From assembly GCF_000522985.1 (NCBI RefSeq), contig NZ_CP007128.1:2154220-2218219 (forward strand): a DNA stretch of 64,000 bases. Reading direction: 5' to 3'. The notes below the pieces were generated by a model. The model did not search any database. It had not been told where the DNA came from and saw only the letters and a list, made by a program, of their open reading frames with translations. Source of the stretch: Gemmatirosa kalamazoonensis (GTDB lineage: Bacteria > Gemmatimonadota > Gemmatimonadetes > Gemmatimonadales > Gemmatimonadaceae). Each line of letters begins with the position of its first letter. Positions within the stretch are counted from its first letter, which is position 1. Made by a program: the position numbers and the translations under genes. Shown here piece after piece: positions 1 to 15,558 of this stretch.

Positions 1-92
1 CACAGAGGAGAACCCTTCAAGAGAAGAAGTTGGTTTCCTCCGTGCCCTCTGTGCCCTCTGTGGTTCAATTCAAAGAGGCAGTCCTCTGCGTG
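1..92. repeat. Truncated copy of an intergenic tandem-armed inverted repeat
   Basis: This is the right half of a long inverted repeat cut by the window edge. The first 14 bases (cacagaggagaacc) pair with the start of the right arm near 32-45. The right arm then runs on as 9-10 nt units of the type CCTCTGTG up to about 68 and ends in a TGGTTCAA block. A tail reading CAGTCCTCTGCG (about 79-90) matches the tail of the copy near 11701. The missing left partner must lie outside the window. No gene is visible here. Confidence 0.75.
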
Positions 93-184
93 AGACGAAC
101 GGGAACCATCCGGCAGGGCGTGCACTTACAGCCGGCCACGAACGACGCACTCCGCGTCGCGCTCTCTCAGCGCCGAGGCCGGCC

Positions 185-1810
185 ATGCCGCACGACACCC
201 ACTACGACGTCATCATCATCGGCAGCGGCGCGGGCGGCGGCACGCTCGCGCGCCGGCTCGCGCCCTCCGGCAAGCGGATCCTGATCCTCGAGCGCGGCGA
301 CTACGTGCCGCGCGAGCCGGACAACTGGAGCACGCTCGCCGTCAACAAGAAGGGGAAGTACCAGACGCGCGAGGTGTGGCGCGACGCGGCGGGTGGGGAG
401 CTGCACCCGCACACGAACTACTGCGTCGGCGGCAACACGAAGTTCTACGGCGCGGCGCTGTTCCGGCTGCGGCGCGAGGACTTCGGCGAGATCGCGCACC
501 ACGGCGGCGTGTCGCCCGCGTGGCCGATCTCGTACGACGAGCTGGAGCCGTACTACACCGAGGCGGAGCGCATCTACGAGGTGCGCGGCGAGCGCGGCGT
601 CGACCCGACCGATCCGCCGGCGAGCGCGCCGTACGCCCACGCGCCGGTGAGCCACGAGCCGCGCATCCAGCAGCTGCATGACGACTGGGCCGCGCTCGGC
701 CACAAGCCGTTCCACGTGCCGTTAGGCGTGCGGCTGAACGAGGCGAATCGTCGCACCAGCCTCTGCGTGCGCTGCGCGACGTGCGACGGCCACCCGTGTC
801 TCGTGAACGCGAAGTCGGACGCGCAGGTGCTCGGCGTCGACGTGGCGCTCGAGCAGCCGAACGTCTCGCTGCTCACGAACGCGCTCGTGCGCCGGCTCGA
901 GACGAGCGCGTCGGGGCGCGAGGTCACGGGCGTGATCGTGGAACGCGACGGCGCGACGGAGCGCTACTCGGCCGACGTGGTCGTCGTCGCGTGCGGCGCG
1001 ATCAACTCCGCGGCGCTGCTGCTGCGGTCGGCGAGCGAGCGCCATCCGCACGGGCTCGCGAACGCCTCGGGCGTCGTGGGGCGGCATTACATGGGGCACA
1101 TCAACTCGGTGCAGATGGCGGTGTCGCGCTGCCCCAATCCCACGGTCTTCCAGAAGACGCTCGCGCTGAACGACTTCTACTTCGGCACGCCGGAATGGGC
1201 GTACCCGATGGGGCACATCTCGTTCGTCGGGAAGCTCGACGCGGTGACGCTCTCCGCGGGCGCGCCGGCGATCGCGCCGGGGTTCACGCTGGAGCTCATG
1301 GCGTCGCACTCGCTCGACTTCTGGCTCACGTCGGAGGATCTGCCCCATCCGGACAACCGCGTCACGCTCGACCGCGACGGCAACGTCGTGCTGGCGTACC
1401 GGCCGAACAACGAGGAGGGGCACAAGCGGCTGATCCGCGAGCTGCACCGCCTCATGAACGGCCAGCGCGCGTGCCCCATCCACGGCAAGGACTGTCACGT
1501 GGGGCTGTTCGCGCGCAGCCTGTTCGTCGGCCAGCGCATCCCGCTCGCGGGCGTGGCGCACCAGAACGGCACGATCCGGTTCGGTACCGACCCGCGCACG
1601 TCCGCGCTCGACGTGCACTGCCGCGCGCACGACGTCGACAACCTGTACGTCGTCGACGCGAGCTTCTTCCCGTCGAGCGGCGCGGTGAATCCCGCGCTCA
1701 CCGTGATGGCGAACGCGCTGCGCGTCGGCGACCACCTGCTGGACCGCATGGGCGCCGCGGCGGCCGTGAGCGCGTCGACGGCGCGCTACGCCGGCGCGGT
1801 GGGGGCGTGA
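185..1810 (+). CDS. GMC family FAD-dependent oxidoreductase
   Basis: This 541-residue flavoprotein belongs to the glucose-methanol-choline oxidoreductase family, which oxidises alcohol groups of sugars, polyols or sterols with FAD. The dinucleotide-binding motif GSGAGG is at residues 13-18. A family signature with ACGAINSAALLL is near 269. The C-terminal substrate/FAD lobe carries HQNGT near 458 and NPALTVMANAL near 502, regions that hold the catalytic His and the second active-site residue in this family. A Cys-rich stretch (CVRCATCDGHPC, near 193-204) resembles gluconate/sorbosone-type dehydrogenases that work with a cytochrome partner, but no cytochrome or small subunit lies next to it. 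There is no clear signal peptide. The VOC gene follows after 2 nt. The substrate cannot be told from sequence. Confidence 0.9.
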   Translation: MPHDTHYDVIIIGSGAGGGTLARRLAPSGKRILILERGDYVPREPDNWSTLAVNKKGKYQTREVWRDAAGGELHPHTNYCVGGNTKFYGAALFRLRREDFGEIAHHGGVSPAWPISYDELEPYYTEAERIYEVRGERGVDPTDPPASAPYAHAPVSHEPRIQQLHDDWAALGHKPFHVPLGVRLNEANRRTSLCVRCATCDGHPCLVNAKSDAQVLGVDVALEQPNVSLLTNALVRRLETSASGREVTGVIVERDGATERYSADVVVVACGAINSAALLLRSASERHPHGLANASGVVGRHYMGHINSVQMAVSRCPNPTVFQKTLALNDFYFGTPEWAYPMGHISFVGKLDAVTLSAGAPAIAPGFTLELMASHSLDFWLTSEDLPHPDNRVTLDRDGNVVLAYRPNNEEGHKRLIRELHRLMNGQRACPIHGKDCHVGLFARSLFVGQRIPLAGVAHQNGTIRFGTDPRTSALDVHCRAHDVDNLYVVDASFFPSSGAVNPALTVMANALRVGDHLLDRMGAAAAVSASTARYAGAVGA

Positions 1811-1812
1811 CG

Positions 1813-2813
1813 ATGCGCCGCCTGCTCCTCGTCCTGCTCCTCGCGTCGGGCCCCGCGTCCGCGGCGTCGGCGCAGCCGCTCGCGGTGCCGGTCGTCGGGA
1901 TGACGGTCTCCGACATGGAGCGCGCCGTCGCGTTCTACACGCGCGTGCTCTCGTTCCGGACGATCTCCGACGTGGAGGTCGCGGGCAGCGCCTACGAGCA
2001 CCTGCAGGGGGTGTTCCCGGCGCGCGCGCGCGCGTGGTGCGGCTCCGGCTCGGCGACGAGGAGCTCGAGCTCACGGAGTACCTGACGCCGCGCGGGCAGC
2101 CCGTGCCGGCCGACTCGCGCAGCGAGGACCGCTGGTTCCAGCACGTCGCCGTGATCGTGCGCGACATGGACAGCGCGTACGCGGTGCTGCGCCGCTTCCA
2201 CGTGGAGCACGCGTCGTCCGAGCCGCAGCGGCTGCCGGACTGGAACCCGAACGCGGGCGGCATCCGCGCGTTCTACTTCAAGGATCCCGACCGCCACACG
2301 CTGGAGATCCTCTGGTTCCCGCCGGGGAAGGGCGCCGCGAAGTGGCACCGCGCCGATGGCCCGCTGTTTCTCGGCATCGACCACACGGCGATCGTCTCCG
2401 GCGACACCGAGGCGAGCCTCGCGTTCTACCGCGACGTGCTGGGCCTGCGCGTCGCCGGCGAGAGCGAGAACTACGGTCCGGAGCAGGAGCGGCTGAACGC
2501 GGTGTTCGGCGCACACCTGCGCATCACGGCGCTGCGCGCGCCGCAGGGGCCGGGGATCGAGCTGCTGGAGTACCTCGCGCCGCGCGACGGCCGCCCGTAT
2601 CCGCCCGACGCGCGCGCGAACGACCTGCTGCACTGGGAGACGACGATCGCGGCGCCCGACGCCGGGGCAGCCGAGCGCGCGCTGCGTGCCGCGCACGCGC
2701 CACTCGTGTCGTCGGGCGTGATCGCGCTCGACTCGCTGCCGCTCGGCTTCGCGCGCGCGCTGCTCGTGCGCGACCCCGACGGGCACGTCGTGCGGATCGC
2801 GCAGCCGCGCTGA
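1813..2813 (+). pseudogene. Exported VOC (glyoxalase/bleomycin-resistance fold) protein, frameshifted in a GC-dinucleotide run
   Basis: Two ORF pieces in different frames form one protein. The first starts at 1813 with a signal peptide (MRRLLLVLLLASG) and the first VOC half. The second takes over near 2034 and completes two VOC modules, with the last module from about 2360 to the stop at 2813. The join falls in an alternating GC run at about 2020-2033 followed by TGG. The frame change equals one extra GC dinucleotide (or one lost base), so this is a sequencing slip, a true mutation or a slippage switch. VOC proteins are metal-dependent lyases, dioxygenases or binding proteins; the role here is unknown. 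It follows the GMC gene by 2 nt and is probably cotranscribed. Confidence 0.8.
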
Positions 2814-2819
2814 CCGGCG

Positions 2820-2988
2820 AAAGACGACGTCCTCACGCGGAGCCGCGCGGAGAACGGCATTGAACCGCAGAGGACGCAGAGGACGCAGAGGACAACCAAG
2901 TCTTGATGGTTTCCTCCGTGTCCTCCGTGTCCTCCGTGGTCGAGACCTGTTGAAGTCCTCTGCGGCCCTCCGCGTCCTCTGCGGTTCA
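2820..2988. repeat. Intergenic tandem-armed inverted repeat
   Basis: The left arm at about 2861-2893 is TGAACCGCAGAGG followed by repeats of the 9-nt unit ACGCAGAGG. After a loop of about 12-15 nt the right arm at 2910-2938 carries repeats of the 9-nt unit TCCTCCGTG. A second right-hand block at 2951-2988 ends CGTCCTCTGCGGTTCA and is an exact reverse complement of the outer left arm, so two alternative hairpins are possible. It fills the gap between the VOC gene and the GlcG-cupin gene and belongs to the same family as the copies at 1 and 11603. Confidence 0.85.
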
Positions 2989-3023
2989 TTCACACAGCCA
3001 AGGCAGTTTCCCGAGACACTTCC

Positions 3024-3887
3024 ATGCGAACCACACGACTACTACCGATTGCCGCGCTGCTCGCCGCTCCGTTAGGCGCGCAGCCCACGAGCTCCAAACC
3101 CTCGCTCACGCTCGACGGTGCGCGCCGCGTGATCGCGGCGGCCGAGCAGTACGCGCGACAGAACCACACCACCGGCGTGATCGCCGTGGTGGACGACGGC
3201 GGCAACCTGATGGCGGTCGAGCGGCTGGACGGCACGTTCGCCGCCGGCGCGAAGATCTCGATCGGCAAGGCGCGCACGGCGGTCCTGTTCAGGAAGCCGA
3301 CGAAGTTCTTCGAGGACGTGGTGAAGAACGGCCGCACCGCGATGGTCGCGCTCGACGACTTCACGCCGCTCCAGGGCGGCGTGCCGATCGTCGTCGATGG
3401 ACAGATCGTGGGCGGCGTGGGCGTGAGCGGCGCGGCGAGCGCGCAGCAGGACGAGGAGCTGGCGACCGCCGGCGCCGCCGCGTTGGGCCCGGCCGCCGCG
3501 GAGGGCGCCGCCACGGGCCCGGTCTCGTACTGGTCCAACGACCAGGTGACCGCGTCGTTCGCGAAGGGCGCCGTGCTGTTCGACGGTGCGGGCGGGCGCA
3601 GCTACATGGTGCACACGAGCCGACGCGAGGGACCCGGACAGGTCGAGGTGCACACGCAGGACACCGACATCATCTACGTCACCGGCGGCTCCGCGACGTT
3701 CGTCACCGGCGGCGCCGTCGTGGATGGCAAGAGCACCGTGCCCGGCGAGATCCGCGGCACCGGCGTCACCGGGGGCGAGACGCGCCGTCTCGCGGTGGGC
3801 GACGTCGTCATCGTGCCCAACGGCACGCCGCACTGGTTCCGCGAGGTGAACGCGCCGCTCACGTACTACGTCGTGAAGGTGCGCTAG
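3024..3887 (+). CDS. Exported GlcG/HbpS-like protein fused to a C-terminal cupin
   Basis: This 287-residue protein starts with a signal peptide ending near LGAQP (about residue 20). Residues about 27-150 form a GlcG/HbpS (DUF336) domain, including VVDDGGNLMAVERLDG and GGVGVSGA, a fold linked to glycolate use genes and to haem binding. Residues about 170-287 form a cupin barrel with a GDVVIVPNGTPHWF segment typical of its second conserved motif. It lies immediately before a gluconolactonase-like gene and a glucose dehydrogenase gene, with a 2-nt gap to the next start, so it is probably part of a periplasmic sugar-acid module. The fusion order is clear; the ligand is not. Confidence 0.85.
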   Translation: MRTTRLLPIAALLAAPLGAQPTSSKPSLTLDGARRVIAAAEQYARQNHTTGVIAVVDDGGNLMAVERLDGTFAAGAKISIGKARTAVLFRKPTKFFEDVVKNGRTAMVALDDFTPLQGGVPIVVDGQIVGGVGVSGAASAQQDEELATAGAAALGPAAAEGAATGPVSYWSNDQVTASFAKGAVLFDGAGGRSYMVHTSRREGPGQVEVHTQDTDIIYVTGGSATFVTGGAVVDGKSTVPGEIRGTGVTGGETRRLAVGDVVIVPNGTPHWFREVNAPLTYYVVKVR

Positions 3888-3889
3888 CC

Positions 3890-5506
3890 ATGCGACCGAT
3901 CATCGGCGCGCTGCTGGCACTCGTCGCGCTTCGAGGTGCCGGCGCGCAGGAAACCGGGAGCGTGCCCGCGGGCCGCCCCGCCGCGATCGTGGATCTCGCG
4001 ACGCCGGACGGCGCGCGGCTCGTGAGCGGCACGTGGCGCTACCACGACGCGGCGATCGTGCCGGTCGACCGCACGCACGACGTCGCGCCGCAGGCCGGGG
4101 CCGCCGACTTCGACGACGCGGCGTGGGAGACGATCGCGCCCGACGCGCTCGACGCGCGACGCGGCGGCGGCCGGCTGTCGTTCAGCTGGTACCGGCTGCG
4201 CTTCACGATCCCCGAGCGCGTCGGCTCGCTGGACCCCACCGGCGCGACCGTGGTGTTCGAGGTCGTCGTCGACGACTACTCCGAGGTGTGGGTCGACGGC
4301 CGGCTGCCGCAGGTGCTCGGCGCGAGCGGCGCCGGGCTCGCGCGCGGGTGGAACGCGCCGAACCGCGTGATCGTCGCCCGCGACGTGCGCCCCGGGCAGA
4401 CGTTCCAGCTCGCGGTGTTCGGCGCGAACGCCCCGCTCTCGCAGCCGCCGGCGAACTTCGTCTGGATCCGCTCGGCCACGCTGGAGTTCCACTCCGACGC
4501 GTCGTTAGGCGTGCGCCGCGTGACGGGCGGCGAGGTGAAGCGGCTGCGTCCCGAGGTGGACGCGATCGTGCCGCGCGACGCGACGATCGAGCGCATCGCG
4601 ACGGGCTTCCAGTTCACCGAGGGGCCGGTGTGGCACCCCGACGGCTACCTGCTGTTCAGTGACCCGAACGCGAACACCATCTACCGCTGGTCGCCCGACG
4701 GCCAGGTGTCGGTGTTCCGTCCGAAGAGCGGTTACGCGGGCGTCGACGTCGGCGAGTACGGTCAGCCCGGCTCGAACGGCCTCACGCTCGACGCCGAGGG
4801 ACGGCTGACGATCGACGAGCACGGGCGGCGGCGTGTCGTGCGGCTCGAGCGCAGAGGACAGATCACGGTGCTCGCGGATCGCCACGACGGCCGGCGCCTG
4901 AACAGCCCGAACGATCTCGTCTACAAGTCGGACGGCGCGCTGTACTTCACCGATCCGCCGTTCGGCCTCCCGAAGTTCTTCGACGACCCACGCAAGGAGC
5001 TGCCGTACTCCGGCGTGTACCGCGTCGCGAACGGCGAGGTGCGGCTCGTGGCGCGCGACCTCACGGGGCCTAACGGCCTCGCGTTCTCGCCCGACGAGCG
5101 GTTCGTGTACGTCGACGACTGGGACGTCGCGCGGAAGGTCATCATGCGCTATCCGGTGCTCGCCGACGGCTCGCTCGGCGCCGGCGCGGTGTTCGCCGAC
5201 GTCACGCGCAGCGATCCCGGTGAGCAGGCGTGGGACGGCCTCAAGGTCGACCGCGAGGGGCACGTGTACGCGGCGGGCCCCGGCGGGATCTGGATCTTCG
5301 CGCCCGACGGCACGCACCTCGGCACCATCAGCCCACCGGAGACGCCCGCGAACTTCGCGTGGGGCGACGCCGACGGCCGCACGCTCTACATCACCGCGCG
5401 CACGAGCCTCTATCGCATCCGCCTCAGCGTGCCCGGCGTCCGGCCATGGCCGGCGCCGAGTACGCAGACCGCCCTGACCGCCCAGACCACCAGGAGCAGG
5501 CCATGA
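3890..5506 (+). CDS. Exported SMP-30/gluconolactonase-like protein with N-terminal beta-sandwich domain
   Basis: This 538-residue protein has a signal peptide (cleavage near RGAGAQ). Residues about 45-210 look like a galactose-binding-type beta sandwich (SWYRLRFTIP, VDDYSEVWVDG). Residues about 235-520 are the six-bladed SMP-30/gluconolaconase/LRE propeller, with the hallmark FTEGPVWHPDGYLLFSD, a substrate/metal region around LNSPNDLVY and TGPNGLAFSPDE. The family hydrolyses aldonolactones such as glucono-1,5-lactone. The stop overlaps the ATG of the glucose dehydrogenase gene (ATGA), so product of one enzyme is the likely substrate of the other. The extra N-terminal domain is not present in the smallest family members. 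Confidence 0.88.
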   Translation: MRPIIGALLALVALRGAGAQETGSVPAGRPAAIVDLATPDGARLVSGTWRYHDAAIVPVDRTHDVAPQAGAADFDDAAWETIAPDALDARRGGGRLSFSWYRLRFTIPERVGSLDPTGATVVFEVVVDDYSEVWVDGRLPQVLGASGAGLARGWNAPNRVIVARDVRPGQTFQLAVFGANAPLSQPPANFVWIRSATLEFHSDASLGVRRVTGGEVKRLRPEVDAIVPRDATIERIATGFQFTEGPVWHPDGYLLFSDPNANTIYRWSPDGQVSVFRPKSGYAGVDVGEYGQPGSNGLTLDAEGRLTIDEHGRRRVVRLERRGQITVLADRHDGRRLNSPNDLVYKSDGALYFTDPPFGLPKFFDDPRKELPYSGVYRVANGEVRLVARDLTGPNGLAFSPDERFVYVDDWDVARKVIMRYPVLADGSLGAGAVFADVTRSDPGEQAWDGLKVDREGHVYAAGPGGIWIFAPDGTHLGTISPPETPANFAWGDADGRTLYITARTSLYRIRLSVPGVRPWPAPSTQTALTAQTTRSRP

Positions 5507-6663
5507 CCACGATCTCTCCCGGCACGACCGCCTACACGCCTCCAGTGCCCGGCGCGACGATGAAGGCGGTCGCCGTCGTGCCGGGAACGCCGGACAGCAT
5601 CCACCTGCGCGACGTGCGCGTACCATCGCATCTCGACCTGCCGGACGGGGTGCTCGTGCGCGTGCTGCGCGTCGGCGTCGACGGCACGGACAAGGAGATC
5701 AACGCCGCGGAGTACGGCGCCGCGCCGCCCGGCGACGACCATCTCATCCTCGGCCACGAGAGCTTCGGCATCGTGACGGCGGTCGCGCCCGACGTGACCG
5801 GCATCCGCGTCGGCGACCACGTCGTCGCGTCCGTGCGGCGGCCGGGGTCGAGCGTGTACGACCAGGTCGGGCTGCAGGACATGACGACCGACGACACGTA
5901 CTTCGAGCGCGGCATCAACCTGCGTCACGGCTTTCTCGCGGAGTACTTCGCCGAGAGCGCGCGGTATCTCGTGACGGTGCCGCGCGAGCTGCGCGAGGTG
6001 GGCGTGCTGCTGGAGCCGACGAGCGTGGCGGAGAAGGCGATCGCGCAGGCGTACGAGATCCAGCGTCGCCTGCGCGTGTGGCAGCCGCGGCGCGCGCTCG
6101 TCCTCGGCTCGGGCACGCTCGGCCTGCTCGCGTCGATGTTCCTGCGGCTGCGCGGGCTCGAGGTGGTGACGATGGGACGCACGGAGCGCCCGTACGTGAA
6201 CGCGGATCTGCTCGACGCGATCGGCGCGACCTACCTGTCCACGGCGGCGACGAGCGTGCGCGAGGCGTCGCGGCTGCACGGGCCGTTCGATCTCATCATC
6301 GAGGGGACCGGCTACTCGCCGCTCGTGTTCGAGGCGATGGAGGCGCTCGGCAAGAACGGCGTGCTCGTGATGGTGAGCGTGACCGGCGGCGACCGCACGG
6401 TGACCGTGCCCGCGGACCGCATCAACCAGGGCTTCGTGCTCGGCAACAAGGTGGCCGTCGGCAGCGTGAACGCGAGCCGCGCGGACTTCGAGCGCGGCGT
6501 GCAGGATCTCGCCCTCGCGGAGGCGACGCATCCCGGCTGGCTCGCGCGGCTGCTCACGCATCCCGTGAAGGGGCTCGAGAGCTACCGGGCGCTGCTCGAC
6601 ACGCTCACGATGGGGAAGGACGCGATCAAGGTGTACTGCGAGGTCGCGCCGCTCGAGGGATAG
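5503..6663 (+). CDS. Glucose 1-dehydrogenase, zinc-type MDR family
   Basis: This 386-residue medium-chain dehydrogenase resembles the archaeal-type glucose dehydrogenase that oxidises glucose to gluconolactone with NAD(P). The start at 5503 overlaps the upstream stop. The diagnostic GVDGTDKEI is near residue 57, the GHESFGIV zinc/catalytic region near 84, and the Rossmann motif LGSGTLGLL near 202. Glucose specificity is inferred from the GTDKEI signature and from the lactonase gene directly upstream. It is the last gene of the 3024-6663 operon and is followed by a long inverted repeat. Confidence 0.85.
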   Translation: MTTISPGTTAYTPPVPGATMKAVAVVPGTPDSIHLRDVRVPSHLDLPDGVLVRVLRVGVDGTDKEINAAEYGAAPPGDDHLILGHESFGIVTAVAPDVTGIRVGDHVVASVRRPGSSVYDQVGLQDMTTDDTYFERGINLRHGFLAEYFAESARYLVTVPRELREVGVLLEPTSVAEKAIAQAYEIQRRLRVWQPRRALVLGSGTLGLLASMFLRLRGLEVVTMGRTERPYVNADLLDAIGATYLSTAATSVREASRLHGPFDLIIEGTGYSPLVFEAMEALGKNGVLVMVSVTGGDRTVTVPADRINQGFVLGNKVAVGSVNASRADFERGVQDLALAEATHPGWLARLLTHPVKGLESYRALLDTLTMGKDAIKVYCEVAPLEG

Positions 6664-6685
6664 ATCGGCGTGGCTCGTCCGGGCG

Positions 6686-6817
6686 CCACGTACGTGTGTG
6701 CGTTGGACTGAAGGTGGACTGAAGAAGGACTGAAGAAGGAGAACACCAACAGAGTCGTTGGTCCTTCTTCAGTCCTCCTTCAGTCCTTCTTCAGTCCTAC
6801 AGAAACACGTACGTGGA
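6686..6817. repeat. Tandem-armed hairpin, 11-nt unit version
   Basis: The left arm (6705-6737) is three copies of an 11-nt unit, GGACTGAAGAA with one variant. The right arm (6763-6797) is three copies of the complement, CCTTCTTCAGT. The loop is about 22 nt. An outer stem is formed by CCACGTACGTGT near 6687 and ACACGTACGTGG near 6806. It lies just after the glucose dehydrogenase gene. The architecture is that of the other hairpins in this window although the sequence is unrelated. There is no T tract, so it is not a standard intrinsic terminator. Confidence 0.85.
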
Positions 6818-6901
6818 GCCCTGCCAGGGCGCGAAGGCAGAAGGAACTCTTCCCGCCGACCCGGCATTCCCGCCAAGCGTCACCCACACGGGAATGCCGC
6901 C

Positions 6902-7093
6902 ATGCCTAACGAAGAGCCCACCGCGCCGCGTCCGCGTGCGCGCCTCACCGAAGCCGACGTGCACGTCGCCCTCGCCGCGCTCGGCCTCCTGCCGTACCTC
7001 GCGTGGGCCCGCCCCGATCTCATGCCGCCGCGCGAGGACCTCACGTCGCCGGAGCGGCTGTACGCGCTGCCGGGCATGGCGGTGGTCGCGTGA
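6902..7093 (+). CDS. Small hypothetical protein ahead of NDH-2
   Basis: This 63-residue reading frame starts MPNEEPTAPRP and contains an amphipathic middle part (VHVALAALGLLPYLAWARP). Its stop overlaps the GTG start of the NADH dehydrogenase gene (GTGA), which argues for translational coupling and against chance. The start codon sits in the GCCTAAC word. I recognise no family; a small partner or regulator of the dehydrogenase is possible but unproven. Confidence 0.5.
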   Translation: MPNEEPTAPRPRARLTEADVHVALAALGLLPYLAWARPDLMPPREDLTSPERLYALPGMAVVA

Positions 7094-8469
7094 GCGCGAA
7101 GGCGACGCCGACGCGGATCGTCATCCTCGGCGCGGGGTTCGCGGGGCTCACCGCGGCGCGCGAGCTGGAGCGGCTGCTGCCGGACGACGCGCCGGTGCGG
7201 CTCACGATCGTGAACCGGGACAACTACTTCCTGTTCACGCCGATGCTCCATGAGGTCGCGGCGAGCGATCTCGACGTGACGACCATCGTGAGCCCGCTGC
7301 GCAAGCTGCTGCGCCGCACGAGCATCTTCTGCGGCACCGTGGAGGGGATCGACACCGAGGCGCGCACGGTCACCGTGTCGCACGCCGAGGGCGCGCACGC
7401 GCACACGCTGCCGTACGACCACCTCGTCGTCGCGCTCGGCGCGGTCACGAACTTCTTCGGCATCCCGGGTCTCGCCGACCGGGCCGTCACCATGAAGTCG
7501 CTCGGCGACGCGATCCATCTGCGCAACCGGCTCATCCAGCACCTCGAGGAGGCCGACTTCGAGTGCAACGCGTCGATCCGGCGGCCGCTGCTCACGTGCG
7601 TGGTGGCGGGCGGCGGCTTCGCCGGCGTCGAGACGGTCGCGGCCGCGAACGACTTCCTGCGCGAGGCGCTGCGCTTCTACCGCAACCTCGGGCCCGCCGA
7701 CCTGCGCGTGCTGGTGGTGCATCCGGGCCCGTACCTGCTGCCGGAGCTCGGCGAGGCGCTTGTCCGGTACACGCAGGCGCGGCTCGCCGAGCGCGGCGTC
7801 GAGGTGGTGCTGAACGCGCGCGTGAAAGGACTCGACGGCGACGCGGTCGTGCTCAGCGACGGCCAGCGCGTCGACGCGCGCACGGTGGTGTGGACCGCCG
7901 GCAACGCCGCCAATCCCGCGCTCGCCGACGTGCCGTGCGCGATGGAGCGCGGGCGCATCGTCGTCGATCCGTTCCTGCGCGTGCCGCAACTCCCCGGCGT
8001 GTGGGCCCTCGGCGACTGCGCGCACATCGCCGACCCCGCGACGGGCAGCGCGTTCCCGCCCACCGCGCAGCACGCGCTGCGCGAGGGACGGTGCGTGGCG
8101 CGCAACATCGTCGCCGAGCTGCGTGGCGGGCGCATGACGCCGTTCACGTTCTCCACGATCGGGCTGCTCGCGACGATCGGACGGCGCACCGGCGTCGCGA
8201 ACATCCTCGGCGTGAACTTCTCCGGCTTCGTGGCGTGGTGGCTGTGGCGCACGATCTACCTCGCCAAGCTGCCGCGGCTCGAGAAGAAGGTGCGCGTCGC
8301 GATCGACTGGACGCTCGACGTGCTGTTCTCGAAGGACCTCGTCCAGTTCAGCACGCGCACGTCGCCCTTCGCTCGGCACGAGCAGGTGCCTCGCTTTGCT
8401 CGGAACCATTTCGCGGCGGCGACACATCTAGCCGACACGAGTGACGCACTGCAATCCGCCCACACCTGA
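7090..8469 (+). CDS. ndh: Type II NADH dehydrogenase (NDH-2)
   Basis: This 459-residue flavoprotein transfers electrons from NADH to quinone at the cytoplasmic face of the membrane without pumping protons. The FAD motif GAGFAG is at residues 14-19, the NADH motif VVAGGGFAGVE near 170, and the second FAD contact WALGDCAHI near 305. An amphipathic C-terminal stretch (about 380-430, FVAWWLWRTIYLAKLP) is the usual membrane anchor of this family. The chosen GTG start overlaps the preceding small gene and leaves the FAD motif at the normal distance from the N terminus. The last 35 residues beyond the membrane helix look unstructured. Confidence 0.9.
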   Translation: MSAKATPTRIVILGAGFAGLTAARELERLLPDDAPVRLTIVNRDNYFLFTPMLHEVAASDLDVTTIVSPLRKLLRRTSIFCGTVEGIDTEARTVTVSHAEGAHAHTLPYDHLVVALGAVTNFFGIPGLADRAVTMKSLGDAIHLRNRLIQHLEEADFECNASIRRPLLTCVVAGGGFAGVETVAAANDFLREALRFYRNLGPADLRVLVVHPGPYLLPELGEALVRYTQARLAERGVEVVLNARVKGLDGDAVVLSDGQRVDARTVVWTAGNAANPALADVPCAMERGRIVVDPFLRVPQLPGVWALGDCAHIADPATGSAFPPTAQHALREGRCVARNIVAELRGGRMTPFTFSTIGLLATIGRRTGVANILGVNFSGFVAWWLWRTIYLAKLPRLEKKVRVAIDWTLDVLFSKDLVQFSTRTSPFARHEQVPRFARNHFAAATHLADTSDALQSAHT

Positions 8470-8481
8470 GGAGCCCGACCG

Positions 8482-8961
8482 ATGCAACGTCGCACCGCAC
8501 TGATCGCCGTGGCCGCCATCATCGCCGGCGGCGCCTGGTACGCGTTCCGCCCCGAGCGCCTGTTCGTGAACCAGACCGTGAACGAGACGCTCGCCGCCGC
8601 GGCGCCGAGCACCACGCCCGTGGCGCTGGAGACCGGCGCGTTCCACGGGGTGCACCACGAGACGAAGGGGCAGGCCACGGTGTACCGGCTGCCTAACGGC
8701 AAGCGCATCGTGCGCTTCACCGGCTTCGAGACGTCGAACGGCCCCGACGTGCAGATCTACCTCGTCGCTGCGCCGGACGCGTCGGACAACGCGACCGTGA
8801 CGAAGGCCGGGTTCATCAGCCTCGGCGCGATGAAGGGCAACCGTGGCGATCAGAACTACGACGTGCCGGACTCCGTCGACCTCGCGAAGTACCGCGCGGT
8901 CACCGTCTGGTGCCGCCGCTTCAGCGTCAACTTCGCGACCGCGCCGCTCGCCGCGAGCTGA
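8482..8961 (+). CDS. Exported DM13 domain protein
   Basis: This 159-residue protein has an N-terminal signal or anchor helix (LIAVAAIIAGGAWYAF). Residues about 50-155 form a DM13 domain: FHGVHHETKGQATVYRL, VRFTGFETSNGPDV, FISLGAMKGNRGDQNYDVP and a single conserved Cys near the end (VWCRRFSVNF). DM13 is proposed to act in extracytoplasmic electron transfer, with that Cys as the possible redox site. It follows NDH-2 by 12 nt and precedes a spondin gene by 38 nt, as part of a cluster that ends with an ECF sigma factor. Confidence 0.88.
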   Translation: MQRRTALIAVAAIIAGGAWYAFRPERLFVNQTVNETLAAAAPSTTPVALETGAFHGVHHETKGQATVYRLPNGKRIVRFTGFETSNGPDVQIYLVAAPDASDNATVTKAGFISLGAMKGNRGDQNYDVPDSVDLAKYRAVTVWCRRFSVNFATAPLAAS

Positions 8962-8999
8962 GCGCGTCCCAACACCACACACACGACCGACACACTCCG

Positions 9000-9743
9000 A
9001 TGACTCGCTCCCGCTCCGCGGCGCTGCTCGCCGTCGCCGCGCTCACGCTTCCCGCCTCGCTCCGCGCGCAGTACGCGGCCGGCCGCGAGGTGCAGTTCAC
9101 GATCCGCGTGGAGAACGTGTCCACGCCCGCCACGCTCAAGCTGTCGAACGGCAAGACCGCGCCAGCGCCCACCGCGCCGCTGCTGTGGACGATCACCGAC
9201 GAGGGGAACCCGCTGTTCACGCCCGGTGCGGTGGACCGCGGCCAGGGGCTCGAGCGGCTCGCCGAGGACGGCAACCCCGGCGTGCTCGCGGACTACGTCA
9301 CGGCGAACCTGAAGAGCGTGCTGCGCAACGGCGTGGCCGGCACGCCGGTCGGCGACGCGCACGCGGGTCCGATCACGCCGGGCAAGGCGTACGAGTTCAC
9401 CGTCGCGGCGTCGCCCGGCCAGCGCCTGACGCTCGCGTTCATGTTCGGCCAGTCGAACGACCTGTTCTACGCGCCGGGCCCGAAGGCGATCGCGCTGTTC
9501 GACGCGAAGGGACAGCCGCGCGTCGCGGACGTCACGAGCGAGCTGCGGCTGTGGGACGCCGGCACGGAGGTGAACGAGGAGCCCGGGCTCGGCGCGAGCC
9601 AGGCGCCGCGCCAGCCCGCGCCGAACACGGGCGCCGCGGAGCGCAGGCCGGTGCAGCTCGTGCACGACCGCTTCACGTACCCCGCCACGCGCGACGTGGT
9701 GAAGGTCACCATCCGTCCGTCCACCGCGACGGCGGCGCGCTGA
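9000..9743 (+). CDS. Exported spondin domain protein
   Basis: This 247-residue protein has a signal peptide ending near SLRAQ. Most of the rest is a bacterial spondin-type beta-sandwich domain: FTIRVENVSTPATL, LFTPGAVDRGQGLERLAEDGNP, FMFGQSNDLFYAP and GTEVNEEPGLGASQAPRQP are all family hallmarks, including the acidic metal-site residues near the end. Bacterial spondins are exported and of unknown function. The gene is often found with other small exported domains under ECF control, and here an ECF sigma gene follows 0.9 kb downstream. Confidence 0.88.
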   Translation: MTRSRSAALLAVAALTLPASLRAQYAAGREVQFTIRVENVSTPATLKLSNGKTAPAPTAPLLWTITDEGNPLFTPGAVDRGQGLERLAEDGNPGVLADYVTANLKSVLRNGVAGTPVGDAHAGPITPGKAYEFTVAASPGQRLTLAFMFGQSNDLFYAPGPKAIALFDAKGQPRVADVTSELRLWDAGTEVNEEPGLGASQAPRQPAPNTGAAERRPVQLVHDRFTYPATRDVVKVTIRPSTATAAR

Positions 9744-9749
9744 GCGCAG

Positions 9750-10631
9750 ATGCGGACCGCGCCGGCGGGATCCGACGAGGCATCGCGGACCGGGAGCCCC
9801 CACTGGGGCCCGGCCCGCGTCGCCGAGGTGATGGACGCGCTGCGCCACCGGCAGCGCGAGGTGCCGGCGTGGGTGCTCGCCGAGGCCCGCGCCGACGGCG
9901 ACGAGATCGTTAGGCACGCGTGCGCGGCGGTGGAGCGCGCGCTGATCACGAACCATCTGCCGGAGCTGCTGCGCGCCGACGTGCGTGTCGCCGTGCTCGT
10001 GGCGCCGGATGCGGCGAGCGCCGCCGAGCCGCTGCTCGACGCGCTCGGCGAGCTGGGGACCACGGTGCACGCCGTCGCCGGCGATCCCACGCTCGACCTC
10101 GGGCTGCCGTCGCTGCCGCATCCACGGCTGCACGTCTGCACGGGAAATGCGTTGGGCCGCTTTGGAACCGTGGGCGCGGTGCGGCTCCTGCGCGTGGTGC
10201 GCGCGACGATGACCGCCGCCGACCGCCTGCTGCTCGGTCTCGACCTGCGGCGCGACCGTGCGGTGCTGGAGGACGAGGGGCACGACGCCGCCGGTGCCCG
10301 CGCCGCGACGCACCTCGGCGTGCTGCGACTGCTGAACCGCGAGCTCGGCGCCGACTTCGACGCGCGGCAGTTCGCGTACACCGTGCGCTACGACGCCGAT
10401 CTGCGGCGCGTCGACACGTCGCTCGTCGCGCGCCGCGCGCTGTTCGTGGAGACGGCGCGGCACGGCTCGATCGTGCTGCGGCAGGGCGAGTCGATCCGCA
10501 CGGCGGTGGACTGCAAGTTCGATCGGGGCCGTGTCGACGCGATGTTGAGCGGGGTGGGCCTCCGCGCGACGTCGTGGTGGACCGACGCCGCGGAACGCTT
10601 CGCCCTGGTCGTCGCGGCGCCCGCCGCGTGA
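9750..10631 (+). CDS. EgtD-like histidine-methyltransferase family protein, divergent N terminus
   Basis: The C-terminal two thirds of this 293-residue protein matches the SAM-dependent histidine N-alpha-methyltransferase fold (EgtD, ergothioneine pathway): GNALGRFG near 131, LLLGLDLRRD near 157, LLNRELGADFD near 190, and the final RQGESIRTAVDCKFD. The N-terminal lobe does not show the usual YDERGSxLFE SAM/substrate region, and the first glycine-rich loop is not recognisable. It may therefore be an altered or inactive methyltransferase. Start is 6 nt after the spondin stop, so it is translationally linked to that gene. No egtB partner is present. Confidence 0.65.
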   Translation: MRTAPAGSDEASRTGSPHWGPARVAEVMDALRHRQREVPAWVLAEARADGDEIVRHACAAVERALITNHLPELLRADVRVAVLVAPDAASAAEPLLDALGELGTTVHAVAGDPTLDLGLPSLPHPRLHVCTGNALGRFGTVGAVRLLRVVRATMTAADRLLLGLDLRRDRAVLEDEGHDAAGARAATHLGVLRLLNRELGADFDARQFAYTVRYDADLRRVDTSLVARRALFVETARHGSIVLRQGESIRTAVDCKFDRGRVDAMLSGVGLRATSWWTDAAERFALVVAAPAA

Positions 10632-10670
10632 TGGGCACGTACCATTGACAGCGCACGAGATCGCGTCATC

Positions 10671-11324
10671 GTGAGCCTCATGACCGAGTCGACCCACACA
10701 TCGACCGCATCGCCCGTCGCGCCCGCCGAGGTGGGTGGGCTCGCGCCGGGCGGGTTCGAGCCGCTGCTGCTCGCGGTGCTCTCGCCCGCGTTCGGCTACG
10801 CACTGCGTCTCGCGCGCAACCGCGCCGACGCCGAGGACCTCGTGCAGGACGCGTCGCTGCTCGCGTTCCGCGCGGCGCACACGTTCGAGCCGGGAACCAA
10901 CTTCAAGGCGTGGTTCTTCCAGATACTGACGCGCTGCTTCTACGCGCGACATCGACGGCAGCAGCGCCGCCCTACGACGGTGGACCTGGAGGACACGCCC
11001 GACCTGTATCTGTACTCGCGATCGGCAGCGGCCGGGCTGCCATGGGAGGGGGAGGATCCGGCCAGCCTGCTCATCGACCGACTCGGCTCCGAGCGCGTCG
11101 AGGCGGCGATCGAGCAGCTTCCCGAGGAGTACGGCACCGTGTGCGCGCTCTACTTCACCGAAGACTTCGCGTACCACGAGATCGCCGCCGTGCTCGGGAT
11201 CCCGGTCGGCACCGTGCGGTCGAGACTACACCGAGGGCGGAAGATGCTCCAGAAAGTGCTCTGGCACGTTGCCGAGGAAGCGGGGATCGTGCGCGATCTC
11301 GCGCACCGGGAGGAGCGGCCATGA
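10671..11324 (+). CDS. ECF-type RNA polymerase sigma factor
   Basis: This 217-residue protein has sigma region 2 at about residues 35-90 (LARNRADAEDLVQDASLLAFRAAHTF) and region 4 at about 150-200 (LPEEYGTVCALYFTEDFAYHEIAAVLGIPVG, RSRLHRGRKML). Region 3 is absent, as in the extracytoplasmic-function group. GTG at 10671 and ATG at 10680 are both possible starts. The next gene, overlapping its stop by ATGA, encodes a zinc-binding anti-sigma factor, so its activity is presumably held by that protein. It may control the exported DM13/spondin genes just upstream, which is inference from position. A perfect TTGACA stands at 10645-10650 but I see no matching -10. Confidence 0.92.
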   Translation: MSLMTESTHTSTASPVAPAEVGGLAPGGFEPLLLAVLSPAFGYALRLARNRADAEDLVQDASLLAFRAAHTFEPGTNFKAWFFQILTRCFYARHRRQQRRPTTVDLEDTPDLYLYSRSAAAGLPWEGEDPASLLIDRLGSERVEAAIEQLPEEYGTVCALYFTEDFAYHEIAAVLGIPVGTVRSRLHRGRKMLQKVLWHVAEEAGIVRDLAHREERP

Positions 11325-11578
11325 GCCACCTCACCCGCCTTACCTGCGAGGAGGCGTTCCGTCGCCTCGACGACTTCCTCGACCGCGAGCTGAGCGCCGC
11401 GGAGACGGAGCTGGTGCACGAGCATCTCGAGATCTGCGCCGGCTGCGCGCGCGAATTCCGCTTCGAGGCGAGCGTGCTGCGCGGCGTGCGCGCGAAGCTG
11501 CGCCAGATCGAGGTCACGCTACCAGCGGGGCTACGGGACCGGGTGCTGCGCGCGCTCGCGGCGGAGGGAGCGCGTTAG
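11321..11578 (+). CDS. Zinc-finger anti-sigma factor
   Basis: This 85-residue protein has the zf-HC2 anti-sigma signature: HEHLEICAGC gives the HxxxCxxC zinc site near residues 34-43, followed by a helix (FEASVLRGVRAKLRQIEV). There is no transmembrane segment, so it is a soluble, probably redox- or metal-sensitive partner of the ECF sigma factor whose gene it overlaps by 4 nt. The stop codon TAG is part of a CGTTAGGC word. Confidence 0.88.
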   Translation: MSHLTRLTCEEAFRRLDDFLDRELSAAETELVHEHLEICAGCAREFRFEASVLRGVRAKLRQIEVTLPAGLRDRVLRALAAEGAR

Positions 11579-11602
11579 GCGGCGGGCCACGGTGCCTTTG
11601 AT

Positions 11603-11730
11603 TTGAACCACAGAGGACACGGAGGACACGGAGGAGAACCCCTCAAGAAAGGTGGTTTCCTCTGTGTCCTCCGTGTCCTCTGTGGTTCAACTCGACAGGG
11701 CAGTCCTCTGCGGCCCTCTGCGGTTCAATC
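11603..11730. repeat. Intergenic tandem-armed inverted repeat between convergent genes
   Basis: The left arm (11603-11640) reads TTGAACCACAGAGG followed by 9-nt ACACGGAGG units. The right arm (11654-11690) is its near-perfect complement ending TGTGGTTCAA. A tail CAGTCCTCTGCGGCCCTCTGCGGTTCAA follows at 11701-11728. The TTGAACC block of the tail supplies the stop codon of the minus-strand pentapeptide gene. The arms could form a stem of more than 30 bp with a 13-nt loop. Confidence 0.87.
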
Positions 11731-12513
11731 CGCACCGTAGCCGAGGTGCGCCAGCAGCTCCGCCGGCAGCGTCGCGCCGTGCACGCTCGACGGATCCGCG
11801 CCGGACGGGTCGCCGTAGCGCAGCGTGTCGAGCCCGCGCGCGGCGCCGAAGCCGGTGCATCGCGACAGCGCGGTGCGCGACCAGAGCGTGTCGGTGAAGT
11901 CCGCGCCGGCGACGCGTGCGCCGTTCAGCGCGGCGAGCGAGAGGTCGGCGTGCGCGAGGTCGGCGTTCTCCAGCACGGCGCCCGTGAGGTTCGCGCCGAC
12001 GAGCGACGCGTAGCGCAGCGTGGCGCCCGCCAGGTTCGCGAACGCGAGCGTCGCGTACGACAGGTCGGCGCCCGTGAGGTCGGCGCCGCTGAGATCGCAG
12101 CGCGTGAGGTCCGCGCGGAACATCGTCGCGTCGTCGAAGCGGCACGCCGAGAGGTTCGAGTTCTTCAGCGTCGCGCGCGTGAGGTCCGCGGCGGCGAACG
12201 ACGTGCGCTTCGGGCCCGGGCGCTTGCGGTTCACCGCCTGCAGCCGCGCGTCGCCGAGCAGCGTGCGCGAGAAGTCGGCTGCCTCGAGGTCGGCGAGCGT
12301 GATGTCCGCGCCGGTGAGCGCCGCGCCGGCGAGCACCGCGTCGCGCAGGTCGGAGAGACAGAGATCGCTGCCGCGGAGATCCGCGTCGCGCAGATCCGCC
12401 GCGCGCAGGTCGGCGTACGACAGCACCGCGCGCGGGAGCTCCGCGGCGGCGAGCGTGTCGCACGGCAGCTCGAGGATCGTGACGCCGGTGTCCCAGCGGT
12501 GAACGGAGAGCAT
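11725..12513 (-). CDS. Pentapeptide-repeat protein
   Basis: This 262-residue protein is almost entirely tandem pentapeptide repeats of the A(D/N)Lxx type (YADLRAADLRDADLRGSDL near 40; ADLTGADLSYATLAFANL near 150). They fold as a right-handed quadrilateral beta helix. A 15-residue insertion (LQAVNRKRPGPKRTSF, near 93) breaks the coil. Known relatives include DNA-mimic gyrase protectors and proteins of unknown role; nothing here decides which. It starts 54 nt after the stop of the flavoprotein gene on the same strand. Its stop lies inside the intergenic repeat. Confidence 0.88.
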   Translation of the reverse strand: MLSVHRWDTGVTILELPCDTLAAAELPRAVLSYADLRAADLRDADLRGSDLCLSDLRDAVLAGAALTGADITLADLEAADFSRTLLGDARLQAVNRKRPGPKRTSFAAADLTRATLKNSNLSACRFDDATMFRADLTRCDLSGADLTGADLSYATLAFANLAGATLRYASLVGANLTGAVLENADLAHADLSLAALNGARVAGADFTDTLWSRTALSRCTGFGAARGLDTLRYGDPSGADPSSVHGATLPAELLAHLGYGAD

Positions 12514-12566
12514 GGCGTGCGAATCGAGCCACCGCGCGGCGTATGTCAATGCCGCGCGGCATCGAC

Positions 12567-13778
12567 TCAGAACGCGACCATCCCGAACTCCGGCTCGACG
12601 CCGAGGTAGACCTGTCCCACCGTCTCGAGCCGCGCCTCGCCCACGAACCCGTGGTGGCGCACCGTCTGCGCGTCGCGGAAGTGCCGCTCGAGCGGGCTGC
12701 GCGCGTAGATCCCCCCGGTACCGCCGGCGCGGTGCATGAGGTCCGTCACCCGTGCCGCCGTGCGCACGGCGTGCGCGCTCGCGAGCATCAGGTCGGCGCG
12801 GTGCTCGAGCGTGTTCGCCTCTCCCGCGACCGTGCGCCGCCACGTCGCGCCGAGCGTGTCGTAGAACAGCAGGCGCGCCGCGCGGAGCCGCGCCTCGCCT
12901 TCCGCCACCGCGCTCTGCACCGCCGCGCGGTGGCGCAGCGTCTTCGTCGCGCCGAGCGGCGTCTTGCGCTCGGCGAGCTCGCGCAGCGCCGTGATCGCGC
13001 CGCGCCCGATCGACAGCGCCACGGGCGCGATCACCACGTCGACCGACGCGAGCGCCGGCATGCGGTACAGCGGACCGGCGAACGGCCCTGCGGGCTCGAA
13101 CGTCGGAGCGATCAACGTGCTCCGCGCTGCGGGGACGAACACGCCGTCCGCCGCGACGTCGTTGCTGTCGGTGCCGCGCATGCCGAGCGAATGCCACGTG
13201 TCCACGATCTCGACCTCGCTCGTGCGCGCCACGAGCGCCACGATCGCGGGACCGAACGGCGTCATGCGCGGCTCGTCGCCGTCGAACACGATCCCCGTCA
13301 TCATCACCCACGGCGCCTCGTGAATCGTGCTGGCGAGCGGCCCGCGTCCGGTGAGCCGGTAGCCGCCGGGCACGGCCTCCGCGCGGTGCGGCGGGCTGAA
13401 CGACGCCGCCATGACGAGGTCCGGGCCGTCGGCGAACAGCTCCTGCGCGCCGGCCTCGGGGAAGCGCGACGCCCACCAGGCGCCCGTGTTGCCCGCCTGC
13501 AGCGCCCACCCCGCGGCGCTGTCGAAGCTCGCGATCGTCTCGGCGACGTGCGCGACCGTGACCGGGTCGGTCTCCAGGCCGCCTAACTCGCGCGGCGTGA
13601 ACATCCGGAAGAGGCCCGCCGCCCGCAGGGCGTCGACCACCGGCCGCGCGAGCCGCCGCTCACGCTCGGCGGCGGCGGCGTGCTCACGCACGATCGGTCC
13701 CAGCGCGCGGGCCCGCGCGAGCAGCGTCTCGTCGACCGTGGCGCCGCGGTCGGCGCCGGCCTGCATCGTCGTCGTCAT
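12567..13778 (-). CDS. Acyl-CoA dehydrogenase-fold flavin enzyme (HsaA/DszC-like)
   Basis: This 403-residue protein has the acyl-CoA dehydrogenase fold. The N-terminal helices (about 10-120) include FDSAAGWALQAGNTGAWW, the middle beta domain (125-230) includes TGRGPLAST and TWHSLGMRGTDSND, and the C-terminal helical domain follows. The GMRGTDSND region and the lack of the catalytic Glu context of true acyl-CoA dehydrogenases place it with flavin-dependent monooxygenases and related proteins such as HsaA and DszC, which use reduced flavin from a partner reductase. No reductase gene is adjacent. A GGAGG ribosome site stands just before the ATG at 13778. Confidence 0.82.
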   Translation of the reverse strand: MTTTMQAGADRGATVDETLLARARALGPIVREHAAAAERERRLARPVVDALRAAGLFRMFTPRELGGLETDPVTVAHVAETIASFDSAAGWALQAGNTGAWWASRFPEAGAQELFADGPDLVMAASFSPPHRAEAVPGGYRLTGRGPLASTIHEAPWVMMTGIVFDGDEPRMTPFGPAIVALVARTSEVEIVDTWHSLGMRGTDSNDVAADGVFVPAARSTLIAPTFEPAGPFAGPLYRMPALASVDVVIAPVALSIGRGAITALRELAERKTPLGATKTLRHRAAVQSAVAEGEARLRAARLLFYDTLGATWRRTVAGEANTLEHRADLMLASAHAVRTAARVTDLMHRAGGTGGIYARSPLERHFRDAQTVRHHGFVGEARLETVGQVYLGVEPEFGMVAF

Positions 13779-13843
13779 CTCGCACCTCCGAGGTAGATGC
13801 ACCGCAGAAGGGCGAGCGTTCCGAAAAGGTTCCGATCGCGGCG

Positions 13844-14476
13844 TCAGTCGGCGACGGTCGCGCCGGCGCCCTCGAGCAGCGCGCGATACCACCGCACCGT
13901 GTCGTCGAGCCGCGCCTCGTGCCCCGCGCAGCCCCAGATCACGCTCAGCGTCCGCGTCGACCCGGCGTACGTCTTCGTGCGCTGCGCATCGCGCACCGCG
14001 TTCGCGCACGGCCCCTCGGCGTCGAACAGGCACACGAGTCCCGCGAGGTCGATCTCCTGCCCCGACGCGTTGAACACGTAGCGCGAGTCCTCTGGTGCGA
14101 CGTCGATGCGGAACGGAGGCCACGCGCGGTCGAGGTCCACGACGCTGATCGGGAACCCGCTGTGCAGCGACACCGCGTTGCACGTGTCGACGGCGGCGTT
14201 GATCGAGCCGAGCGCGCCCTCGGACGCGGCGCGCACGAGGTACTCCGAGGCCGGCTTGCCGCGGCCCGTGGGCCTGTAGCCGCCGATGCGCAGCATGTCG
14301 CGCACGTCGGCGCGCACGCGCTCGTCGCGCGCGAGCGGGGCCGCGGCGTTCGCATCGAGCAGCGCGAGCACGTCGGGCGGCGTCGCGAGCTCGCCGAGCG
14401 GCGTGGGGAACGTGGTGACGAACCACGCCGCGCGGAGCAGCGGGTGCGGCGCGACGTCGACGGAGAGCGCGGGCAT
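13844..14476 (-). CDS. B3/B4 tRNA-binding domain protein
   Basis: This 210-residue protein matches the stand-alone B3/B4 domain related to the editing module of phenylalanyl-tRNA synthetase beta. Typical segments are GGYRPTGRGKPASEYLVRAA near 65 and NAVSLHSGFPISVVDLDR near 102, then a metal/ligand-like stretch PEDSRYVFNASGQEI near 127. Stand-alone members may clear or bind aminoacyl-tRNAs, but few are characterised. It is the first gene of the minus-strand group 14476-11725; the next gene starts 65 nt on. Confidence 0.8.
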   Translation of the reverse strand: MPALSVDVAPHPLLRAAWFVTTFPTPLGELATPPDVLALLDANAAAPLARDERVRADVRDMLRIGGYRPTGRGKPASEYLVRAASEGALGSINAAVDTCNAVSLHSGFPISVVDLDRAWPPFRIDVAPEDSRYVFNASGQEIDLAGLVCLFDAEGPCANAVRDAQRTKTYAGSTRTLSVIWGCAGHEARLDDTVRWYRALLEGAGATVAD

Positions 14477-14757
14477 CGGCGAACGATAGCCCGGCGCGCA
14501 CGCCGACGAGAGAGCTCAGTGTGCTCGAATCGGGGCGGGCGCGCACAGCAGCCGCCGCCTCCACCGTCGTCTGCGCGCGCTCCCGCATCGCCGCGTCCAC
14601 CGGCGCTCGGCGGCAGGCGAGATACGCCGCCGTCTCCTCCGTCCGACGAAGTGGCGCGCGGCCGTCCGACCCGCGCGTCCGGACGCTATGATTTCTCTCG
14701 TAAACGCCGCGGCCGCGTAAGAAACGCGCCGGCGCGCGCACACCGAGGCCACCCGCG

Positions 14758-15516: not shown

Positions 15517-15558
15517 CGCGCTCCGGTGGGCGCCGTCGATCGACCGCCGACGGGCCGC

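Follow-up and report, generated by a model that had tools for sequence, protein, structure and literature searches.

The window analysed here comprises 64,000 nucleotides of the Gemmatirosa kalamazoonensis genome (7.48 Mb, 4 contigs; assembly GCF_000522985.1, contig NZ_CP007128.1, positions 2,154,220 to 2,218,219 of the forward strand). Between positions 7090 and 11578 it carries six head-to-tail genes, all on the forward strand, for a type II NADH dehydrogenase (NDH-2), a DM13 protein, a spondin-domain protein, an EgtD-like protein, an extracytoplasmic function (ECF) sigma factor and a zinc-binding anti-sigma factor. The window genes very likely belong to an ECF-controlled cluster, and we lean, from sequence, towards an oxidant-triggered regulon that would join sugar oxidation to envelope redox proteins. 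A preliminary description had drawn the last five genes as an envelope redox-stress module. We rejected the module in that form: the conserved unit is larger and consists mostly of proteins outside the envelope, and the full-length EgtD-like type occurs in only 2 of 179 genomes of the family. The redox trigger suggested with it fared better and is supported by a zinc site of the type described for RsrA.

The probable operon and its partly conserved neighbourhood

As the preliminary description had it, the five genes are tightly spaced behind NDH-2, which ends at 8469, 12 bp before DM13. The following gaps down to the sigma gene are 38, 6 and 39 bp, 39 bp being the maximum, and the sigma and anti-sigma genes overlap by 4 bp. 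NDH-2 through the anti-sigma factor is a probable operon, and its start probably lies upstream of DM13, with NDH-2 and a 63-amino-acid open reading frame (ORF) at 6902 joining without a gap.

We surveyed 200 genomes of the phylum, our own genome included, and searched for DM13 in a larger set of 395. Spondin matches were found in 19 of the 200 genomes and DM13 matches in 8, with 19 in the larger set. In a genome of another family (G008; G and L numbers denote genomes and loci), ten gene products at 50–77% identity lie within 19.5 kb, namely GMC oxidoreductase, VOC, HbpS/cupin, SMP-30 and glucose-dehydrogenase-like proteins, DM13, spondin, sigma, anti-sigma and a pentapeptide-repeat protein. 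Genes for aquaporin, a debranching enzyme and GH63 adjoin this set; in the G. kalamazoonensis chromosome these three and an OsmC-like gene lie immediately left of the window, so that the cluster is continuous there over ~20 kb. Parts of the same set occur in G323, G341 and G214 (G341 without the sigma gene on the fetched stretches), while in G125 and L250 the order differs, DM13 lying on the strand opposite to spondin, anti-sigma and sigma. DM13 and spondin are thus linked to the ECF pair or the same cluster in all six; no NDH-2 or EgtD-like gene was found in the fetched stretches of any of them. The conserved unit is the larger sugar-oxidation and glucan cluster. The preliminary description had named a lack of conserved neighbourhood and of sigma regulation as evidence against it; as far as can be read from DNA, there is partial synteny and a shared promoter.

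The sigma factor contains only regions 2 and 4. It falls in a clade of 20 rows (SH-aLRT 98, quick tree). For 11 of the 14 rows of an inner group of this clade (support 80) the fetched stretch carries one or more cluster genes, counting the pentapeptide gene, the only one in L101 and L103; for L102, L105 and L106 it carries none. Close sigma relatives (E below 1e-40) occur in 12 of the 200 genomes, and our own genome encodes a second close ECF paralogue (L109) adjoining GH63. In L105 (9339–10205, genome G026) a single open frame of 288 amino acids joins sigma and anti-sigma; a sequencing error is possible there. Within the cluster, close to glucan or DM13 genes, there are also anti-sigma genes with no close sigma match beside them (L104:738-1004, L142:357-584, L213, L214 and L231).

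The anti-sigma factor, of 85 amino acids and encoded beside the sigma factor, has no hydrophobic segment by inspection and is read as soluble, in agreement with the preliminary description of a soluble zinc anti-sigma factor. Its CHCC zinc site (C9, H35, C39, C42) is invariant in all 13 aligned sequences. In RsrA, zinc is bound by C11, H37, C41 and C44, the trigger disulfide involves Cys11, and a Cys11His variant does not dissociate with H2O2 (PMC4960319). The arrangement is that of SigR-RsrA of Streptomyces and SigH-RshA of other actinobacteria, an ECF sigma factor beside a soluble CHCC zinc anti-sigma factor, and the RsrA spacing C-25-H-3-C-2-C is the same in the window protein. The pair differs in its predicted target genes and in its scores: the best NCBIfam matches, SigH_actino (TIGR02947) and RsrA (TIGR03988), are both below curated cut-offs. 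We predict that the anti-sigma factor works like RsrA, although we do not file it as RsrA because its 40.7 bits do not reach the cut-off of 62.5. Moreover, the AS12 anti-sigma factors of PMC7406223 are all actinobacterial, whereas the window pair is not. The work on RsrA also reports that one study disputes a simple cysteine rule for redox sensing (PMC4960319), so the CHCC site argues for redox control without closing the case.

The DM13 domain is clear (PF10517, cut-off 25 bits), and the single cysteine noted in the preliminary description is C144, invariant in 8 of 8 aligned DM13 sequences. One N-terminal hydrophobic segment reads as an anchor. The spondin-domain protein exceeds the NF038123 cut-off of 40 bits, is not matched by Pfam Spond_N, and is probably exported, judging from its signal-like N-terminus. 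In the titles and abstracts found by literature search, no role was assigned to bacterial DM13 or spondin domains, and neither the sugar-oxidation/glucan cluster nor a DM13/spondin/ECF module was described. A defined promoter, a candidate regulator of known switch chemistry and a co-regulated gene list make the function of DM13 and spondin directly testable.

The promoter motif and the proposed regulon

A motif, GGAACC-N16-CATT (sometimes CGTT, often followed by nTAGCC), was spotted by eye among 29 upstream regions, six of them from the window, and was seen before DM13, spondin, GH63, GMC, SMP-30-operon, sigma and anti-sigma genes. That relatives have this promoter too implies regulation by an ECF factor. 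An actinobacterial-style pattern, GGAAY-N15-18-SGTH, gave 3 matches in the 29 regions and was dropped for this motif, whose -10 element is unlike that of SigR promoters. We built a matrix from eleven relatives' sites chosen by eye (five before DM13, three before GH63 and three before sigma genes, from seven genomes), with no window site. Position 6843, 59 bp ahead of the 63-amino-acid ORF, gave its best match in the 64 kb (22.8 bits); the maximum in 60 first-order random windows was 16.6 bits and the mean 10.2. The site before the GMC gene at 102 (15.7 bits) is only suggestive because random windows reach 16.6, and the 8402 site before DM13, at 7.5 bits, is not above chance alone; a comparable site of 12.2 bits stands 77–80 bp before DM13 in locus L216. 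Rescored with a matrix from which every site of the same genome had been removed, the eleven matrix sites had 13.1–34.1 bits each.

In our own genome a looser pattern gave 11 matches, the 6843 site among them, versus 0 for the reversed control. Six reach at least 17 bits, and all six lie 36–111 bp before starts called by script; behind them are cytochrome b561 with an MsrP-like protein, a 299-amino-acid protein encoded divergently from GH63, the window operon, a DUF1003 protein next to the paralogous sigma gene, a protein kinase (a label from sequence) and a 220-amino-acid protein without a family. Of the remaining five, two fall within genes, two precede a gene, by 75 and 359 bp respectively, and the last points towards no nearby gene. 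Six relatives gave 21 matches versus 5 for the control, at least three of the 21 lying inside unrelated genes or being otherwise weak; in G214 all six matches are on the cluster contig. Sites were also seen in loci that had not contributed to the matrix. L213 and L231 (Eisenbacteria) have them before DM13 and anti-sigma, the L231 DM13 site with only 9.7 bits; L214 (Rokubacteria) has them before anti-sigma, GH63 and DM13, the one for GH63 falling inside the final part of the anti-sigma gene; and L250, from a Gemmatimonadota record, has them before spondin and DM13. L240 (Eisenbacteria) reached only 7.0 bits, and no site was seen in L211 and L226, which have faint anti-sigma matches. With four matrix loci left out, scores upstream of DM13 were higher in loci linked to sigma or anti-sigma (5 vs 71, p=1.2e-4).

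These sites would fit the following mechanism. At rest the soluble CHCC anti-sigma factor would hold the sigma factor; a thiol oxidant, which we take to be the probable trigger (disulfide, peroxide or reactive-chlorine stress), would form a C9-C39 or C9-C42 disulfide, expel zinc and free the sigma factor, as in RsrA. The freed factor would read GGAACC-N16-CATT promoters at 6843, before GMC and elsewhere in the genome, and the operon of six genes would belong to the regulon of its own sigma factor; since the 6843 promoter would drive an operon containing that factor, positive feedback would follow. GH63, the debranching enzyme, the glucose-dehydrogenase-like, SMP-30 and GMC proteins and NDH-2 may then couple glucan breakdown and sugar oxidation to the supply of reductant and respiratory electrons. 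The redox proteins placed in the envelope would be DM13 and spondin, MsrP-like protein with cytochrome b561 elsewhere in the genome, and RclA-like or DUF417 proteins in relatives. In G214 a flavoprotein behind a motif site matches RclA at 416.8 bits (cut-off 740), and in G125 a motif site is followed by DM13 and a DUF417 protein. Both RclC and the DUF417 protein RcrB are part of the defence against hypochlorous acid (PMC9600549). The likeness to the Escherichia coli RclR/RcrR reactive-chlorine regulons is limited to these genes, both outside the window, and the regulators are unrelated.

Several observations weigh against such a regulon. The matrix gave no site in 12 of the 23 relatives' upstream regions, and none was seen before the sigma gene in the window, L100, L104, L105, L106, L107, L109 or L138. 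Across the 200 genomes the strict motif had 39 matches in 37 genomes versus 21 for the reversed control, and most of the 37 lack a close relative of the window sigma factor; counted in this way, the motif was not a decisive test of the sigma factor. The division of DM13 loci into linked and unlinked was set after the loci had been seen. The MsrP-like protein scores 90.7 bits, under the cut-off of 207, and for the G214 flavoprotein a generic FAD-oxidoreductase model (529 bits) outscores RclA. No cluster gene was found near DM13 in 12 of the 19 phylum genomes that have it (some contigs are short), so the neighbourhood check put forward in the preliminary description held only in part. Because the strict motif is only mildly enriched phylum-wide, the regulon cannot be recognised from the motif by itself, and the case rests on the position of sites, not on counts.

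The osmotic, desiccation or carbon-supply response is an unlikely alternative, in which the ECF pair controls the cluster, stored glucan is mobilised, aquaporin passes water and polyols, and the CHCC site is structural. GH63, the debranching enzyme, aquaporin and the OsmC-like protein make up a large share of the cluster; the aquaporin, OsmC-like protein and glucan enzymes suit osmotic or desiccation stress equally well, the sigma paralogue adjoins GH63, and ~14 kb left of the window is what we take to be a trehalose-phosphate synthase-like sequence. Against a structural site stands the N-terminal cysteine, the disulfide sensor in RsrA, which none of the 13 aligned anti-sigma factors has lost; flavoproteins and the MsrP-like and RclA-like genes behind motif sites also speak for oxidants.

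GGAAC is a common ECF -35 element, and the motif might be a generic signal that some other ECF factor recognises, in which case the local pair would sit beside the cluster without controlling it. The second close paralogue, which could share the promoter with the window factor, and the missing site directly before the window sigma gene would suit this explanation, which we consider improbable: the 16-nucleotide spacer with CATT or CGTT recurs before sigma in L101, L103 and L132 and before anti-sigma in L213, L214 and L231, and the operon bearing the 6843 site ends with this very sigma and anti-sigma. Extended to its widest form, the oxidant-triggered regulon becomes doubtful: an undescribed oxidant-defence system commanded by the Gemmatimonadota ECF/CHCC pair (with Eisenbacteria and Rokubacteria relatives on promoter and anti-sigma evidence), feeding electrons from stored glucan and sugar oxidation to envelope DM13 and spondin, for which the Gemmatimonadaceae would have recruited a dead EgtD as a sensor of a histidine- or ergothioneine-like ligand.

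The EgtD-like protein

The preliminary description called this protein degenerate and without the N-terminal S-adenosylmethionine (SAM) region. Degeneracy was borne out by comparison with ten ordinary EgtD (nine from relatives' loci and the second EgtD of our own genome), all of which retain the catalytic motifs. The N-terminus is not missing: ~100 residues are present, but SAM motif I can no longer be recognised and ~30 residues around motif II are lost. Only residues 104–289 match PF10017/TIGR03438, and residues 102–289 align with the solved EgtD chain 4pim (E 2.5e-25). SAM motifs I (ELGAGxxxK) and II are present in 10 of 10 aligned EgtD (L002 with an EYGSG variant of motif I) and absent from the window copy and from a copy in L216; the Asn of GSTIGNF and the equivalents of Glu282 and Ser284 are likewise kept in all ten and changed in these two, in which the Met252 equivalent is also lost. 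The Asn, Glu282 and Ser284 are histidine-binding residues of EgtD; columns 252 and 282 were located through the two differences between chains 4pim and 4pip. Ala at 282 is also present in 4pip, which we take to be an engineered variant.

L216 belongs to a record titled Gemmatimonadaceae bacterium isolate ES-bin-29 and coincides in coordinates with G426 of the family-genome survey; its order is DM13, EgtD-like, sigma, anti-sigma, with no spondin. This degenerate copy in the same place overturned the idea that the protein is an orphan of a single genome, as a direct scan of genome contigs, which found nothing, might have suggested. The two share a GNALG motif and 33% identity over 284 positions, and form one clade against 30 EgtD (support 99/96; long branches make the grouping unsure), although the window protein scores some EgtD higher (up to 137.7 bits) than the L216 copy (100 bits). 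Each of the two genomes has a further EgtD match at another locus. Of the 200 phylum genomes, our own included, 77 contain EgtD-like matches, and in the 29 loci fetched from the 76 relatives no DM13, spondin, sigma or anti-sigma gene lay within 1.5 kb of EgtD. A predicted structure (mean pLDDT 53.9) was not used.

From these alignments the protein is probably a retained, inactive homologue, neither simply a truncated enzyme nor unique to the window. Decay into a pseudogene, or a passenger without function, is a separate question from that of sigma control. The loss of substrate and SAM residues and the rarity of the full-length type would be expected of it; two intact full-length frames that have diverged so far, yet share one position, flanked by DM13 or spondin and by sigma, and one clade, would not, and we regard it as rather unlikely. 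Any role in the sigma-controlled system, perhaps as a non-catalytic, ligand-binding partner, is tentative. Retention of an inactive EgtD, if true, would give a clue to a use of the EgtD fold outside catalysis.

The cluster in other lineages and further features of the window

Searching with the DM13 alignment identified 186 relatives, and the top 80 were retained. In 25 of these 80 loci the fetched stretch near DM13 held two or more of eight cluster genes (bit-score limits chosen by us; many contigs cut), L217 and L238 being G214 and G341 again. By record title the 25 span ten lineages: Acidobacteria, Eisenbacteria, Rokubacteria, Ignavibacteria, Dadabacteria, Rhodothermaceae, Deltaproteobacteria, Binatia, Proteobacteria and Gemmatimonadota. 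The cluster comprises GMC oxidoreductase, VOC, HbpS/cupin, SMP-30, glucose-dehydrogenase-like protein, aquaporin, GH63, debranching enzyme and sometimes NDH-2; in 11 of the 80 loci NDH-2 was a same-strand neighbour of DM13 at 1.5 kb or less, and in 8 spondin lay at 200 bp or less. Most clusters from other lineages have neither the GGAACC-N16-CATT motif nor an ECF pair, a further point against the regulon proposed. The bacteria are mostly uncultured, from soil and groundwater, and an answer would annotate a common, nameless cluster.

Another site, GCATCYTTTC-N11-RCATCTAA (CGTTTC in L225), stands 78–126 bp before the DM13 match in L225, L228, L229, L241, L242 and L248 (Binatia, Deltaproteobacteria and Proteobacteria), with the overall spacing of GGAACC-N16-CATT; perhaps another ECF factor drives the cluster there. 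Tandem pairs of DM13 matches are frequent outside Gemmatimonadota (L210, L212, L215, L219 and others).

Table 1. Annotated features of the window and the basis of each assignment.
Feature	Position	Strand	Basis
ECF-type promoter-like site before GMC gene	102..133	+	second-best match of relatives' matrix, 15.7 bits
GMC oxidoreductase	185..1810	+	Pfam; 77% identity to G008 copy
VOC/glyoxalase-family gene, two overlapping frames	1813..2813	+	Pfam for 2034-2813; single continuous gene in G008
HbpS-like and cupin protein	3024..3887	+	Pfam for 3129-3887; upstream sequence
SMP-30/gluconolactonase-like protein	3890..5506	+	Pfam SGL, 150.7 bits
Glucose-dehydrogenase-like zinc dehydrogenase	5503..6663	+	Pfam Glu_dehyd_C, 180.6 bits
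Putative ECF-type promoter-like site of operon, GGAACT-N16-CATT	6843..6874	+	matrix 22.8 bits, best in 64 kb
Short ORF, 63 amino acids, no family	6902..7093	+	
Type II NADH dehydrogenase (NDH-2)	7090..8469	+	Pfam Pyr_redox_2 and NDH2_C
Weak second promoter-like site before DM13	8402..8433	+	7.5 bits
DM13 protein	8482..8961	+	Pfam PF10517, 87.7 bits
Spondin-domain protein	9000..9743	+	NCBIfam NF038123, 128.7 bits
Degenerate EgtD-like protein, predicted pseudo-methyltransferase	9750..10631	+	PF10017 and TIGR03438
ECF sigma factor	10671..11324	+	PF04542, PF08281; NCBIfam
CHCC zinc-binding anti-sigma factor, RsrA-like	11321..11578	+	zf-HC2, TIGR03988
Pentapeptide-repeat protein, convergent to ECF pair	11725..12513	-	Pfam

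For the HbpS-like/cupin protein the gene caller gave a start at 3129, and an in-frame ATG with a signal-peptide-like start lies at 3024. The VOC gene, split over two frames here and unbroken in G008, carries a frameshift or a sequence error. Relatives of the pentapeptide-repeat protein share a contig stretch with the ECF pair in L100, L101, L103, L104, L132 and L138. An Rfam search of window positions 1–16000 gave no match. A distant ECF-like sigma factor of 316 amino acids is encoded between the debranching-enzyme and OsmC-like genes (G000:C2 ~2151628-2152578; L203:13629-14579). Lastly, a repeat element, ACCACAGAGGACACGGAGGACACGGAGGA, has four matches with at most three mismatches (0 expected), at 36–64 (-), 2912–2940 (-), 11607–11635 (+) and 11658–11686 (-), between cluster genes or at the cluster edge; the copies at 11607–11686 form an inverted pair.

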